NCBI GenBank assembly: GCA_030525945.1
Contig: JAUNDT010000002.1
Coordinates: forward strand, 62,001-126,000
Source: Coriobacteriaceae bacterium
GTDB lineage: Bacteria; Actinomycetota; Coriobacteriia; Coriobacteriales; Coriobacteriaceae
Length of the DNA stretch: 64,000 nucleotides
Direction of reading: 5' to 3'
Both the position numbers and the translations under genes were made by a program. Below, in pieces: positions 2,858 through 15,756 of this stretch. Below the pieces are notes generated by a model, which was not told the origin of the DNA, ran no database searches, and worked only from the letters and a program-made list of their open reading frames with translations. Every line of letters starts with the position of its first letter. The first letter of the stretch is position 1.

Positions 2858-4339
2858 TTAGCCGGCCATCGGGCGGGCGCGGTCGATGCGGGCGAGGCAG
2901 TCGTCGCGGCCGATGAGCGCCATGGTCTCGCCCAGCGGGGGGCTCACCATGTTGCCGCATTCGGCCACGCGAACGGCGCCGAATACCAGGCGCTTCTTAA
3001 CGTCGAGCGCCTCAGGCAGCGGCTCGAGCGCCGCATCGATGCTCTCGGGTGTCCATGCGTCCTCGCTAAGCGCCTCAAGCGCCGTGCGGGCGGCGTCGAG
3101 GACGGCGCCCAGGCCCTCCTTGGCAAGGCCCTTGGCAACCGACTTCTCGTCATACGCAAGGGTCTCGGCCGTGGCGAACACCGGGGCGGCCACGGCGGCG
3201 GCGTCGGCGGGCATCTTGGTGCGCGGGCGCACGATGGCGGCGAGTGCGTCGACCCACGCCTCGTCGGCCTCAAAGCCCTCGTCGATCATGTCGGCCTCGA
3301 GCAGCTCGGGCAGCATGATCTGGTCGGCGAAGTCGGCGTCGGACATGGCGTTGATGTACTCGGCGTTCATCCAGTCGAGCTTCTTGGGGTCGAAGGTCGC
3401 CGGGTTCTTGGAGATGCGGTCCAGGCTGAACTTGCTGGCCAGCACGTCGCGCGGGATGACGGTGGTCTCGCCGTCGAGCGACCAGCCGAGCAGCGCCAGG
3501 TAGTTCACGAAGGCGTCGGACAAGTAACCGGCGTCACGGTACTCCTCCACGGAGGTCGCGCCGTGGCGCTTGGAGAGCTTCTTGCCGTCGGCGCCCAAAA
3601 TCATGGAAATGTGCGCGAACGTGGGCACGGGCGCGCCGAGAGCCTCGTACACCATGACCTGGCGCGGGGTGTTGGAGAGGTGGTCGTCGCCGCGGATGAC
3701 GTGGGTGATGCGCATGGCGGCGTCGTCCACCACGGTGGCGAAATTGTAGGTGGGGGTGCCGTCGGAGCGGAAGATCACGAAGTCGTCGAGCTCCTTGGCG
3801 TCAAAGGTCACCTCGCCGTGGACGGCGTCGTTGATGACCACGTTGCCGCGGTCAGCCGGGACCTTGATGCGCAGCACGTAGGGCTCGCCGGCGTCGATGC
3901 GGGCCTGGGCCTCCTCGCGGGAGAGGCCGCGGCAGCGGCGCTGATAACCCTGGAAGGGGTCCTTGCGGGCCTGGGCGGCCTCACGGTCGGCGGCCAGCTG
4001 CTCGGGGGTGCAGAAGCAGGGGTATGCCGTGCCCTCGTCCCACATCTTCTGCGCCGCGGCCTTGTACATGTCCAGGCGCTCGGTCTGGGAGTAGGGGCCA
4101 AAGTCGCCGCCAACCTCGGGGCCTTCGTCCCAATCGAGGCCGAGCCAGCGCATGGCGCGCAGGATGATCTGCGTGTTCTCGTCCGTCGAGCGGGTGGGGT
4201 CGGTGTCGTCGATGCGCAGGATGAAATCGCCGCCGTTGGCGCGGGCGAAGGCCCAGTTGTAAATGGCGGTGCGAGCGCCGCCGATGTGCAGCTTGCCAGT
4301 GGGCGAGGGCGCAAAACGAACGCGGACGTTGTCGCTCAT
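2858..4339 (-). CDS. gltX: Glutamate--tRNA ligase
   Basis: This class I aminoacyl-tRNA synthetase charges tRNA-Glu in the cytoplasm. The 493 residues match the normal bacterial length. The HIGH-type motif is at PSPTGKLHIGGART (residues ~10-23) and the KMSKS-type motif at KKLSKRHG; the C-terminal helical anticodon-binding half is complete. The ATG at 4339 has AAGGAG at the expected distance. A perfect TATAAT lies 37 bases upstream. Since no amidotransferase genes are in view, the sequence does not show whether it also mischarges tRNA-Gln. Confidence 0.96.
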   Translation of the reverse strand: MSDNVRVRFAPSPTGKLHIGGARTAIYNWAFARANGGDFILRIDDTDPTRSTDENTQIILRAMRWLGLDWDEGPEVGGDFGPYSQTERLDMYKAAAQKMWDEGTAYPCFCTPEQLAADREAAQARKDPFQGYQRRCRGLSREEAQARIDAGEPYVLRIKVPADRGNVVINDAVHGEVTFDAKELDDFVIFRSDGTPTYNFATVVDDAAMRITHVIRGDDHLSNTPRQVMVYEALGAPVPTFAHISMILGADGKKLSKRHGATSVEEYRDAGYLSDAFVNYLALLGWSLDGETTVIPRDVLASKFSLDRISKNPATFDPKKLDWMNAEYINAMSDADFADQIMLPELLEADMIDEGFEADEAWVDALAAIVRPRTKMPADAAAVAAPVFATAETLAYDEKSVAKGLAKEGLGAVLDAARTALEALSEDAWTPESIDAALEPLPEALDVKKRLVFGAVRVAECGNMVSPPLGETMALIGRDDCLARIDRARPMAG

Positions 4340-11388: not shown

Positions 11389-12375
11389 ATGCGCGTTGTG
11401 TTTATGGGCACGCCCGCGTTCGCGGTGCCGTCGCTGCAAAAGCTTGCCGCTGTGCACGAGGTGGCCTTGGTGCTCACCCGCCCCGATGCCGTGCGCTCGC
11501 GCGGCAAAAAACTCGAGCCCTCGCCGGTTAAGGTGGCGGCGCTTGAGCTGGGGCTTCCGGTGCTTGAGGCGAGCCGCATCACGCCCGAGGTCTTCGAGGC
11601 GCTCGAGGCGGCCCGCGCCGACGTGTTCTGCGTGGCCGCGTACGGCTGTATCCTGCCCGACGAGGTGCTTACCATGGCGCCTCTGGGTTGCGTGAACGTT
11701 CATGCCTCGTTGCTGCCGCGCTGGCGTGGCGCCGCGCCCATCCAGCGCTCCATCCTGGAGGGCGACGAGCGCACAGGCGTGTCCATCATGCGCATTGGGC
11801 ACGGTGTCGACACGGGCGCGTATTGCGCGCAGGCGAGCTGCTCCGTGGCGGGCAAAACCGCTGACGAGTTGACGGCCGAGTTGGCCGAGCTCGGCGGCGA
11901 GCTGCTGGTGGAAACGCTGCCTTCGCTCGTGGATGGCAGTGCGGTTTGGACCGAGCAGGATGAGGCGCTCGTGACCCATGCGGCCAAGATCTCTAAGGCA
12001 GAGATGCGTCTGGACCCCGGGTTGCCCACGCTTGAGAACGAGCGTCGCGTGCTGGCGTCCTCCGACGCGGCGCCGGCCCGCTGCGTGATCGCTGGCAAGC
12101 CCGTGCGCGTGATGCGCGCCGTGGCGGTTGGTGCTGGTGCTGCGGCTTCCGGTTCTGATGCGGCCGCCGGTTCAGGTGCGGATGCAGGTGCTGAGCTGGG
12201 CATGGGCTTGGGCTCCGGTGCGTGCTCCTCGGCTGGTAAGCGCCTGGTGCTGGGCTGCGCGGACGGCGTGCTTGAGGTGCTCAGCGTTAAGCCCGACGGC
12301 AAGCGTGAGATGGATGCCTCTTCGTTTTGCGCTGGCCTGCGCGAGCAGACGTCTACCTGGGAGAAGATCCAGTAG
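11389..12375 (+). CDS. fmt: Methionyl-tRNA formyltransferase
   Basis: This enzyme formylates Met-tRNA for initiation. The 328-residue chain begins MRVVFMGTPAFAVPSL and carries the catalytic HASLLPRWRGAAPIQ and the GVSIMRIGHGVDTGA stretch. Residues ~247-283 form a Gly/Ala/Ser-rich insertion in the C-terminal OB-like domain, between VMRAVAV and KRLVLGC, not expected in the family. The start lies two bases after the def stop, so translation is probably coupled. A strong terminator hairpin lies ~95 bases downstream. Confidence 0.95.
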   Translation: MRVVFMGTPAFAVPSLQKLAAVHEVALVLTRPDAVRSRGKKLEPSPVKVAALELGLPVLEASRITPEVFEALEAARADVFCVAAYGCILPDEVLTMAPLGCVNVHASLLPRWRGAAPIQRSILEGDERTGVSIMRIGHGVDTGAYCAQASCSVAGKTADELTAELAELGGELLVETLPSLVDGSAVWTEQDEALVTHAAKISKAEMRLDPGLPTLENERRVLASSDAAPARCVIAGKPVRVMRAVAVGAGAAASGSDAAAGSGADAGAELGMGLGSGACSSAGKRLVLGCADGVLEVLSVKPDGKREMDASSFCAGLREQTSTWEKIQ

Positions 12376-12468
12376 GTGCTTCCGCGAGTCAGTTGGGCGC
12401 CGTACGATGGTTGCTCTGGTGTGCAGCGAGGCAGCACGAACTGCTGACTGTAATCTGTTATCTGAACA

Positions 12469-12502
12469 GGGGGCGGTGCGCTTATCGCGCATCGCCCCCT
12501 TT
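12469..12502 (+). terminator. Rho-independent terminator of def-fmt
   Basis: The stem GGGGGCGGTGCGC pairs with GCGCATCGCCCCC (one G-A mismatch) around the loop TTATC and is followed by TTT. Confidence 0.75.
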
Positions 12503-12684
12503 GCGTGCAGGCCGGGGTGCGAGGGGTCAGTATCTTTCACTAGCTTTGAGGTGTTCCTGTGTGAGAGATGATTGGCGGCTGAGTCTGATATTAAGATCGC
12601 CTGCTCAAATGGGCCTGCGTCTGGGCCTTAAGAGTACGCTTCAGCCCAGTGCGCGGAGTCTTTCGGCCGCAAAGAATGGCTTGG

Positions 12685-12895
12685 ATGGTCAAATTGCCTT
12701 TGGATGGCCAAATCACCTTGCGGCTGGGTTCGATGAGCGTCTTTGAACCGAGTGCGCGGCGTTGCAGCCAGCAAAAATCACGTGGTGTGGTCAAATCTCC
12801 TTGCAACTGGGTCGTTTTTAAGAGACACCAGCTTGCTCATGTCTCCTTTTACCGGCAAAAAATGGGCTCTGTGGTCAAATTATCCCGTGACTGGG
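12685..12895 (-). repeat. Left arm of a bipolar degenerate repeat cluster
   Basis: Three 25-base copies of GTGGTCAAAT...ACTGGG type lie at 12704-12728, 12787-12811 and 12871-12895, with periods of 83 and 84 bases, plus a truncated copy at 12685. Each full copy is preceded by a C(C/A)(G/A)GCAAAAA-like stretch or a relic of it. The same unit appears in inverted orientation in the right arm. Confidence 0.75.
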
Positions 12896-12948
12896 CCTTT
12901 AGGGTTGCTCGATAGGCCTATTTCGTCCACGTCCCATCTGCAAGATGG

Positions 12949-13200
12949 CCCAGTCACGGGGTGATTTGACCATATGACCGATCTTTTGGGATGTTTTTGG
13001 GGCGCACGGGGATTCGTATTCACCCAGTCACGAGGTAATTTGACCAGAGGACCAATCTTTTAGGGCGGTTTCGAGTCGGGTGGGGTTCGAGCTCGCCCAG
13101 TCGTGGGCCGCTTTGACCAACGGGCCGAGTTTCTAGAGCGTTTCACGGGGGATGAGAGCTCGTATTCATCGAGTCACGAGGCATTTAGACCGCTCGGTCT
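12949..13200 (+). repeat. Right arm of a bipolar degenerate repeat cluster
   Basis: Four copies of a unit beginning CCCAGTCACGGGG, with variants, and continuing ATTTGACCA start near 12949, 13023, 13096 and 13168, a period of 72-74 bases. Between the cores a GATCTTTTGGG-like stretch is also conserved in the first copies. The first unit is the reverse complement of the nearest left-arm copy, so 12871-12975 could fold into a long hairpin. Divergence between copies excludes a CRISPR array. Confidence 0.75.
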
Positions 13201-13449
13201 CTCTATTTTTGTAGCACATGCGCTGTGGCCGCGCCCGTTGCTGGGCTTTTGAGCGAGTACCTGGACTTCTTGCTTAGATGAGGGCAGGTATAGACCCCTG
13301 CAGGTACAATCTATAAAGAATGTTGAATCATTTGGCTATGGGAATGAGGGACGGTTGCAGCCGCGGCAAAGCAAGCGCCGGGAAATTGCTCGCTAGTCGT
13401 TCTTAATTAGCTACGGATCGCTATAGGGCCAAGGGCAAAAGGGGAGAGC

Positions 13450-15216
13450 ATGGCAAAGGTGACGCCGGCGCGTAGGGTCGCGCTGAACGTGTTGATGGAA
13501 GCCGAGCAAACGGGCCGGTACGCGCGCGAGCTCATGCCTGCTGCAGCGGATGCGGCTCGCCTCGACGCGCGTGATGCGGCGTTCGCCATGCGCCTGGCCC
13601 TGGGCGTCACCTCCACGCGCGGTTGTCTGGACGACGCGCTCGACGCGCACCTGGACAAGCCGAAGAAGGTCGCCGCCCGTGTTCGCATGGCCCTGCGCAT
13701 TGCCGCCTTCGAGGCCCTGTATCTGAATACGGCCCCCGAGGTTGCGGTGAGCCAGGGCGTTGAGCTGGTGAATTCCTTTGCCAAGGGCGCGTCGGGGTTG
13801 GCCAATGCGGTGCTTCGTCGCGTGTGCGCGTGCCGTGATGCGTTTTTGTCGGCGGAGGACGCCGCGCCTGAGCAGCGGGAAATGGTGGCGCGCGCCCGTC
13901 GTGCGGGCTTGCCCGTGTGGCTCGTGCGCCGGGTGGTTGAGTCGCTTGGCGAAGATCGCGCGCAGGAGGTGCTCGACGCCCAGTGTGGCGCCGCTCCCTT
14001 GGCGGTCCATGCGAATCCGCTGCGTGAGCGTGAACTCGTGCGGCCTCTGCACGATGCCGATGCGCTGCCGTTGGCGCTGCCCGGGGCTTTGAGTGTTGCG
14101 CATGTTGGGCCGCTGGTCTCGAGCGGCTCGTTTGCCCACGCCGATGCGGTGGCCTCCGATTACCATGCGCAGCTGATCGCCGCGGCGGCCACGCGCGCGG
14201 GCTCGTGCTTGGAGATCGGCGCGGGCCGCGGCACCAAAACGTTCATGATGCTCGCTCATGTGCGCCGTCGTCAGATTGAACATGCGCACGTGGCGCTCGA
14301 CATGTACGAGGGTAAATGCCGTGCGAATGCCGTGCGCATTGAGCGTGCCGATCTGGGTGGTCTCGAGCTGGCGGTTGGTGACGCGACTGATCTGGACGCC
14401 TGTTTGGCTGAGTACGATGCTCATGTGTGTGGGTGCGTGGCTGAGGGTATTGGTGGGCGTGCGGAGGGGCATGCGAGCGGCTGGACGAACGGCGAGGGGA
14501 GCGTGCGTGTGAGCGGGGATACCGGCGGTTTTGCAAGCTCAAATTCGAGTGTTCGAGTGAGTAGCGGGACGAGCCTATTTTCGGGCGAACGCGGCGGCGA
14601 GACCTCTGCTGACCGTGCGGTTGTTCCCGTGGATGCCGATTTCCGCGAGTGTGCTTTGTCTGATGCCCTCGCACATGGTACCGCCCGCACGTGTGTCCCC
14701 GCGGGCGATGATTCCCATGAACGCGCTTTGCGCGATGCCGTTGCGCATGGTACCGCCAGTGCGGGCGCTCCTGCGGATGTCGATTCCCGTGATCGTGTGT
14801 TGTTCGATACCGTGTTCGTGGATGCTCCGTGCTCAGGTACGGGTACGATGCGTCGTCATGGCGAGATTGCCTGGCGATTGACGCCCACGGAATGTAAGCG
14901 TGAGCTGCCTGATCTGCAGCTGGCGCTGCTACGCGCGGCTGCCCGCCGTGTTGCCGAAGGCGGCGAGCTCATCTACGCGACTTGCTCGGTGCTGCGTGCC
15001 GAGAACCAGGATGTTGTCCAGGCGTTTTTGTCTTCCGAAGAAGGTGCTCGATTCAAGCTGGCGCCGGTGTCTGGTCTGCTGGAAGAAGCCGGTGCAGCGT
15101 ACGCCAGGGCCGCGTGTGAAATGGCGGCGCTCGAGGACGAGCACGGCTGCTTCCAGAGCGTCCCCGCTCCTGGCGGCTACGACGGCCACTTCTGCGCACG
15201 CTTCATCCTGCGATAA
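13450..15216 (+). CDS. rsmB: 16S rRNA (cytosine-967-C5)-methyltransferase
   Basis: RsmB methylates C967 of 16S rRNA. The N-terminal ~135 residues form a NusB-like RNA-binding domain and the rest a SAM-dependent methyltransferase with EIGAGRGTKT (SAM loop), the DAPCSGTGTMRRHGEIAW motif and the catalytic YATCSV. At 588 residues it is well above the usual ~430-460. The excess is an insertion of ~125 residues (about 321-450) between the motif at VGDATDLD and FDTVFVDAPCSG. Its last part is made of a 24-residue tandem repeat (HGTA recurs 72 bases apart). Conserved catalytic residues flank the insertion, so activity is expected. The ATG follows GGGGAGAGC. Confidence 0.92.
   Translation: MAKVTPARRVALNVLMEAEQTGRYARELMPAAADAARLDARDAAFAMRLALGVTSTRGCLDDALDAHLDKPKKVAARVRMALRIAAFEALYLNTAPEVAVSQGVELVNSFAKGASGLANAVLRRVCACRDAFLSAEDAAPEQREMVARARRAGLPVWLVRRVVESLGEDRAQEVLDAQCGAAPLAVHANPLRERELVRPLHDADALPLALPGALSVAHVGPLVSSGSFAHADAVASDYHAQLIAAAATRAGSCLEIGAGRGTKTFMMLAHVRRRQIEHAHVALDMYEGKCRANAVRIERADLGGLELAVGDATDLDACLAEYDAHVCGCVAEGIGGRAEGHASGWTNGEGSVRVSGDTGGFASSNSSVRVSSGTSLFSGERGGETSADRAVVPVDADFRECALSDALAHGTARTCVPAGDDSHERALRDAVAHGTASAGAPADVDSRDRVLFDTVFVDAPCSGTGTMRRHGEIAWRLTPTECKRELPDLQLALLRAAARRVAEGGELIYATCSVLRAENQDVVQAFLSSEEGARFKLAPVSGLLEEAGAAYARAACEMAALEDEHGCFQSVPAPGGYDGHFCARFILR
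14626..14830 (+). repeat. 72-base in-frame tandem repeat inside rsmB
   Basis: The element GCRCATGGTACCGCC is at 14671 and again at 14743, exactly 72 bases later. In the protein the units read PVDADFRECALSDALAHGTA, PAGDDSHERALRDAVAHGTA and PADVDSRDRVLFDTVFVDAP; the third merges into the true catalytic strand, so the extra units look like duplications of the segment before it. Confidence 0.8.
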
Positions 15217-15380: not shown

Positions 15381-15440
15381 GACCGCGGGTTTTGGACACA
15401 CAGGCCTCAAAAACGGCCCTATATGTCAAAATTCACGGTC
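15381..15440. repeat. 60-base palindrome, GACCGCGG family (copy 1)
   Basis: The element begins GACCGCGGGTTTTGGACA and ends with the imperfect complement ...TGTCAAAATTCACGGTC, followed by GCTTTG. A second copy with the same ends and flank lies 233 bases downstream. Confidence 0.7.
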
Positions 15441-15613
15441 GCTTTGCGCAACGCGTGCTGGGATTTTGCGCTGCGCATGGACGACGTACAGGCCAGGGAG
15501 TTCAAGCGCCACTTGCGTAACGTTAGGGCGTTTGACCCGTGTTGCTGCGCTCGGGCTGTCGGCGCACAGTCAGGCGCCGTCGCGCTGTCCGTTGCTCCGT
15601 CCCTCTACAAAGG

Positions 15614-15674
15614 GACCGCGGATTATGGACATACAGGGCTCAAGTATGCATCTGTATGTCCAAAACCCGCGGTC
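15614..15674. repeat. 61-base palindrome, GACCGCGG family (copy 2)
   Basis: The element begins GACCGCGGATTATGGACA and ends TGTCCAAAACCCGCGGTC, again followed by GCTTTG. The right arm of this copy matches the left arm of copy 1, so they are related elements and not chance hairpins. Confidence 0.7.
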
Positions 15675-15756
15675 GCTTTGGGGCCAGTAGGCCTTTGGGC
15701 ACGGACACCGGCACCCCGGCGGTGGCGCAATGGCCATAACGGGGCCTTACAGCCTC

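Follow-up and report, generated by a model that had tools for sequence, protein, structure and literature searches.

Bipolar, helically phased repeat arrays as candidate nucleoprotein assembly sites in a Coriobacteriaceae genome

In this study, we found that the gene-free interval between fmt and rsmB carries a bipolar array of 24-bp sites (12602-13192; consensus CCCAGTCACGGGGTGATTTGACCA), which, judging by how the sites are arranged, is probably a nucleoprotein assembly site for a putative sequence-specific DNA-binding protein. The array lies in a window of 64,000 nucleotides from a Coriobacteriaceae bacterium and consists of four minus copies, four plus copies and a half-copy (Table 1).

The two groups of sites point outward from ~12922 when the core is written CCCAGTC...TTTGACCA, and the outermost copy is decayed on either side. 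An earlier note on this DNA had counted at least seven copies of the unit and a truncated one. This count was confirmed and raised to eight by an outermost minus copy (12602) that had been missed, and the truncated copy proved to be the half-site at 12686, which arose from a 19-bp tandem duplication detected by TRF. The same duplication displaced the outer minus copy to a distance of 103 bp, which would be 84 bp without it. The periods, 83-84 bp among the minus copies and 74, 73 and 73 bp among the plus copies, agree with those given before, and the central hairpin described there was recovered as well: the inner opposed pair is hairpin-capable, with 42-nt arms that are 81% complementary. Elsewhere in the window, an inverted repeat with CTGTATGTCCAAAACCCGCGGTC-like arms occurs in two related copies between rsmB and the next gene (15381-15680; 29-nt arms, 90% complementary; 23-nt arms, 96%). 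They are unrelated to the array.

Table 1. Coordinates of the fmt-rsmB array in the window and of the type D arrays in the source genome.
Feature	Position	Strand	Remark
Gene-free fmt-rsmB interval	12376..13449	.	1,074 bp; fmt ends 12375, rsmB starts 13450
Outermost minus site	12602..12625	-	degenerate (CCCAGACGCAGGCCCATTTGAGCA); profile score 24 bits; 7 mismatches vs consensus
19-bp tandem duplication	12681..12719	.	TRF
Half-site, product of the 19-bp tandem duplication	12686-12709	-	
Minus site	12705..12728	-	
Minus site	12788..12811	-	83 bp from the 12705 site
Inner minus site	12872..12895	-	84 bp from the 12788 site
Centre between opposed groups	12896..12948	.	53 bp
Inner plus site	12949..12972	+	matches consensus CCCAGTCACGGGGTGATTTGACCA exactly
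Plus site	13023..13046	+	74 bp after the 12949 site
Plus site	13096..13119	+	73 bp after the 13023 site
Outermost plus site	13169..13192	+	degenerate; 73 bp after the 13096 site
Type D arrays (L164-L167)	G000 C8:99172, C9:17976, C15:40525, C23:113052		

The unit recurs in the genome. A pattern search allowing up to three mismatches gave 33 matches in ten clusters on nine contigs of the whole 1.88-Mb genome (reversed-pattern control, 0), and a looser pattern search revealed an eleventh array on contig 2. All eleven arrays (type A) are bipolar, with minus copies on the left, plus copies on the right and two to four copies a side. The eleventh (G000 C2) has been split by an IS3-like element of 1,263 bp (L063:2486-3748), which is accompanied by a duplicated TTT target; once the insertion and the duplication are subtracted (1350 - 1263 - 3), the spacing is 84 bp, or eight turns. 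Contamination does not explain arrays that are spread over many large contigs and flanked by core genes. According to ORF scoring and Pfam, used here in place of an annotated record, the neighbours are a ROK kinase gene and tRNA-Val, rpsT with tRNAs, a GH25 gene, tyrS, an AAA protein gene and hbd, ligA and a tetR-family gene, gdhA and macB, fmt and rsmB, elp3, rpoD, and ettA (an ABC-F-like ATPase gene named from its sequence). These genes are unrelated housekeeping genes with no common function; the arrays are often found after tRNA or gene ends or between convergent genes, as in about six of them. Genes flanking nine arrays map, with a chimeric query, to 72-1463 kb of the relative G039 (2.46 Mb; dnaA at 2034 kb), and in these coordinates none of them (n=9) falls within ~500 kb of dnaA. 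This suggests that array placement avoids the origin, a post hoc pattern in nine arrays on which we do not rely, since gene order here may differ from that of G039. Two arrays are flanked by another dispersed repeat of the AAAAGTGGC...GTGCTG type, located outside the arrays (L015 and L018).

Alignment of 46 sites showed two near-invariant boxes, CCCAGTC and ATTTGACCA, separated by a half-conserved RCRGGGYR and followed by a T-rich box ~13 bp outside ATTTGACCA. The core CCCAGTC-N8-ATTTGACCA is asymmetric and forms no palindrome. Linkers and centres are nearly information-free, and once the sites were masked, no significant mutual similarity was detected inside the arrays.

In sharp contrast to linker sequence, linker length is kept. 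Same-orientation spacings are only 63, 73-74, 83-84 and 95 bp, apart from the single 103 caused by the 19-bp duplication, and 29 of the 30 deviate by at most 1 bp from an integer number of 10.5-bp turns. A fit through the origin gave 10.496 bp per turn (bootstrap 95% 10.463-10.523), the whole-turn B-DNA spacing of a phased protein-binding array. In the phase test R was 0.94 at a best period of 10.40, a value of R that none of 5,000 random sets reached. Linkers between adjacent copies in the window are 76% alike, which indicates that arrays grow by local duplication; array spacings are thus partly inherited and not all independent. The phase result also holds when each length class is counted once per array. 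The inner opposed pair is separated by 77 bp in nine of eleven arrays and by one turn less (66 bp) in the other two; correspondingly, the 53-bp centre has the same length in 9/11 arrays and no conserved sequence. Thus, the idea that the unit places binding sites on one helix face at seven to eight turns, raised in the earlier note from a single locus, is strongly supported by the ten other loci. Conserved sites, unconserved linkers and a length kept modulo the helical turn point to selection for a protein that assembles on a single B-DNA face.

The putative protein would read an asymmetric 24-bp site through the CCCAGTC and ATTTGACCA boxes, the RCRGGGYR between them and the outer T-rich box. 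With sites separated by integer numbers of B-DNA turns, its copies would load on one helix face, and two opposed stacks would come together over a centre of fixed length. Potentially, the protein binds and then oligomerises along the DNA or bridges DNA.

The fmt-rsmB gap measures only ~90-100 bp in two relatives (L027, L028) vs 1,074 bp here; therefore, most of the interval was gained. The relatives available for comparison are few, and they are distant, with 47-65% identity in the N-terminal part of rsmB. Sites of this kind were not found at the rpsT, tyrS, gdhA, rpoD and ligA loci of three relatives. The search for the unit elsewhere, proposed in the earlier note, succeeded within its own genome and failed outside it: the strict inverted core pair is missing from the 396 other genomes searched in the order, which makes the type A sequence lineage-specific, a point that counts against the assembly reading. 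At the tyrS locus, where the source genome carries a type A array, G039 has a bipolar set of its own on the 3' side of the gene (L120:1508-1695), with two copies of the core AAAAATGTGCGGGGTTTATTC at a distance of 64 bp and a third in inverted orientation. BLAST against plasmids and phages gave no match, nor did the site patterns among the viral and genome contigs searched, collections that may omit the home genome. A literature search that included the literal site strings returned nothing relevant.

A looser search revealed a sister site (type B; CGCAATATTCGGGTATTTTGACCA), in which 16 of 24 bases are identical to the window unit. Type B occurs as single opposed pairs, six in the source genome and others in G017, G018, G029 and G039, i.e. 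in 5/67 family genomes (control matches, 0). The two sites of a pair are 160, 180-182, 191-193, 202 or 222 bp apart, in steps of ~10.5. Orthologous pairs include those at trmB/helicase, nicotinamidase/rubrerythrin, zip/ybjQ and ABC transporter/tRNA-Leu (gene names assigned from sequence by eye), and in several of them the interiors have diverged and the length has been kept. At zip/ybjQ, the element measures 216-217 bp in three species with an interior that cannot be aligned, and G019 lacks it. Type B pairs are vertically kept sites and not fresh transposon copies. At the elp3 and ettA loci, the type B pairs of relatives lie near the positions of the type A arrays here. Beside the lone pair in G018, nothing convincing was found as a partner gene.

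Looping operators with several phased sites are well known, and in those of the lac, ara and gal type the sites lie on one helix face at distances that step by a turn, as they do here. A transcription factor on the phased sites might therefore loop or roadblock DNA and control the neighbouring genes, a reading that we consider rather unlikely. Some type B pairs between divergent genes, e.g. zip and ybjQ, and the position of the contig 18 array upstream of a tetR-family gene would fit it. However, the neighbours are mixed housekeeping genes and the arrays often lie between convergent genes, both of which speak against a single regulon. Among the type B loci, one (L094) is flanked by two 3' ends, and no sigma-70-like promoter was matched within 12370-13460. 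Unlike lac, ara and gal operators, the arrays comprise two opposed groups with 4-9 sites in all, and they occur at 11 unrelated loci, mostly off promoters. The ends of Mu, Tn7 and IS21 offer another parallel, as they carry several asymmetric, bipartite sites of 20-25 bp that are inverted at the two ends. Together with the gain of the interval relative to relatives, this likeness could indicate transposon remnants or non-autonomous copies, either with such multi-site ends or as a MITE family, on which a transposase would bind several sites. We regard this as improbable, and the decayed mobile element suggested in the earlier note was not borne out: the masked arrays have no significant interior similarity, the fixed-length 53-bp centre is of unrelated sequence, and linker length is retained without linker sequence. 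In addition, the arrays contain no cargo, inspection of the flanks by eye revealed no common border or target duplication, copy number per side varies, and there were no phage or plasmid matches. The conserved length and diverged interiors of type B pairs at orthologous loci across species also speak against transposition.

A structured RNA encoded by the interval, as a long hairpin or scaffold, appears very improbable to us. The plus strand does fold better than shuffled sequences (z -4.8), the arms of a type B pair resemble each other slightly more than they resemble those at other loci (p 0.014), and in other elements of the genus a conserved centre lies between long complementary arms. Yet the spacings are multiples of 10.50 bp, and A-form RNA is nearer 11; they are also quantised but differ between the two sides of each array, which prevents the linkers from pairing in register. 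This phasing disfavours the RNA scaffold that the earlier note had listed among its possibilities. Among inner type A pairs, covariation within loci was absent (p 0.18). Scanning the interval and the sister elements against Rfam gave, besides two genuine tRNAs, weak below-threshold matches only; no covariance model matched at its gathering score, and no family came near threshold.

The assembly site proposed here resembles several known systems in part. Like REP/BIME elements with RAYT, the arrays are dispersed intergenic repeats with alternating orientation and variable copy number per locus, often past gene ends. They differ in their strict bipolarity about one axis, their whole-turn spacing and a unit that is not the short imperfect palindrome of that family. 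The sole Y1_Tnp (RAYT-like) gene (G000 C2:99650-99982, within a 259-aa open frame) has no array sites nearby, and type B pairs are present in G017, which has no RAYT. In their dispersal, at about ten chromosomal positions that bear no relation to what the neighbouring genes do, the arrays are reminiscent of matS-MatP and parS-ParB; those sites, however, are single short palindromes, whereas here long asymmetric sites form arrays. No additional ParB-type gene was found besides the single canonical ParB_N gene near dnaA, as in relatives. Of the partition or nucleoid site considered in the earlier note, the ParB-type partition part was therefore not supported, and the nucleoid-type alternative is still our favoured guess. 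Plasmid iterons and centromere-type repeats (SopC) likewise are direct-repeat arrays for one protein (a putative one here) with helical spacing, but the present arrays are bipolar and chromosomal, occupy eleven loci and have no linked rep or extra parB gene. A CRISPR array was rejected on account of degenerate repeats in two opposed orientations and linkers of several lengths.

Provided that a protein binds the arrays, its most likely function would be in chromosome architecture, i.e. loop anchoring, bridging between dispersed arrays or insulation of transcription units; we consider this perhaps evenly balanced against other roles. If a protein does assemble there, common gut bacteria would have a dedicated chromosome-folding or insulating system, of which no description was found in the databases or papers searched. 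The turnover of cores between sister species would then represent, in bacteria, a rapid co-evolution of DNA and protein at architectural sites.

In relatives, many type B elements contain CAAAACCNCAGGATT, which occurs in 20 of 45 genus genomes (control matches, 0). At most loci read (L134-L163, L168-L177), it sits between inverted arms of lineage-dependent sequence. Matches of this 14-base sequence among the viral contigs listed look like chance and were not used. In some CAAAACCNCAGGATT elements, the arms are long and complementary and vary in concert, as in a hairpin; that the arms of some of these elements look as if they could pair in this way speaks against the assembly reading. The source genome further contains a third site family (type D; CAAACCNCCCCCAATGYAG) in four bipolar arrays, all with a 42-107-42 bp layout (4/4) and with the CAAAACCNCAGGATT motif on the dyad axis (CAAAACCGCAGGATT). 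Thus, at least three core types (A, B and D) coexist in it. It is tempting to speculate, tentatively and with considerable doubt, that the genus harbours a class of chromosomal sites not described so far, namely bipolar arrays phased with the helix that have a fixed axis and fast-turnover, lineage-specific cores, whose co-evolving proteins would bridge or fold the chromosome. Such a class would resemble eukaryotic centromere repeats in its fast core turnover. In G016, two near-identical CAAAACCGCAGGATT elements are located 2.3 kb apart (L175:1430-1850 and 3760-4180) with flank in common, and this pair is evidently a recent duplication.
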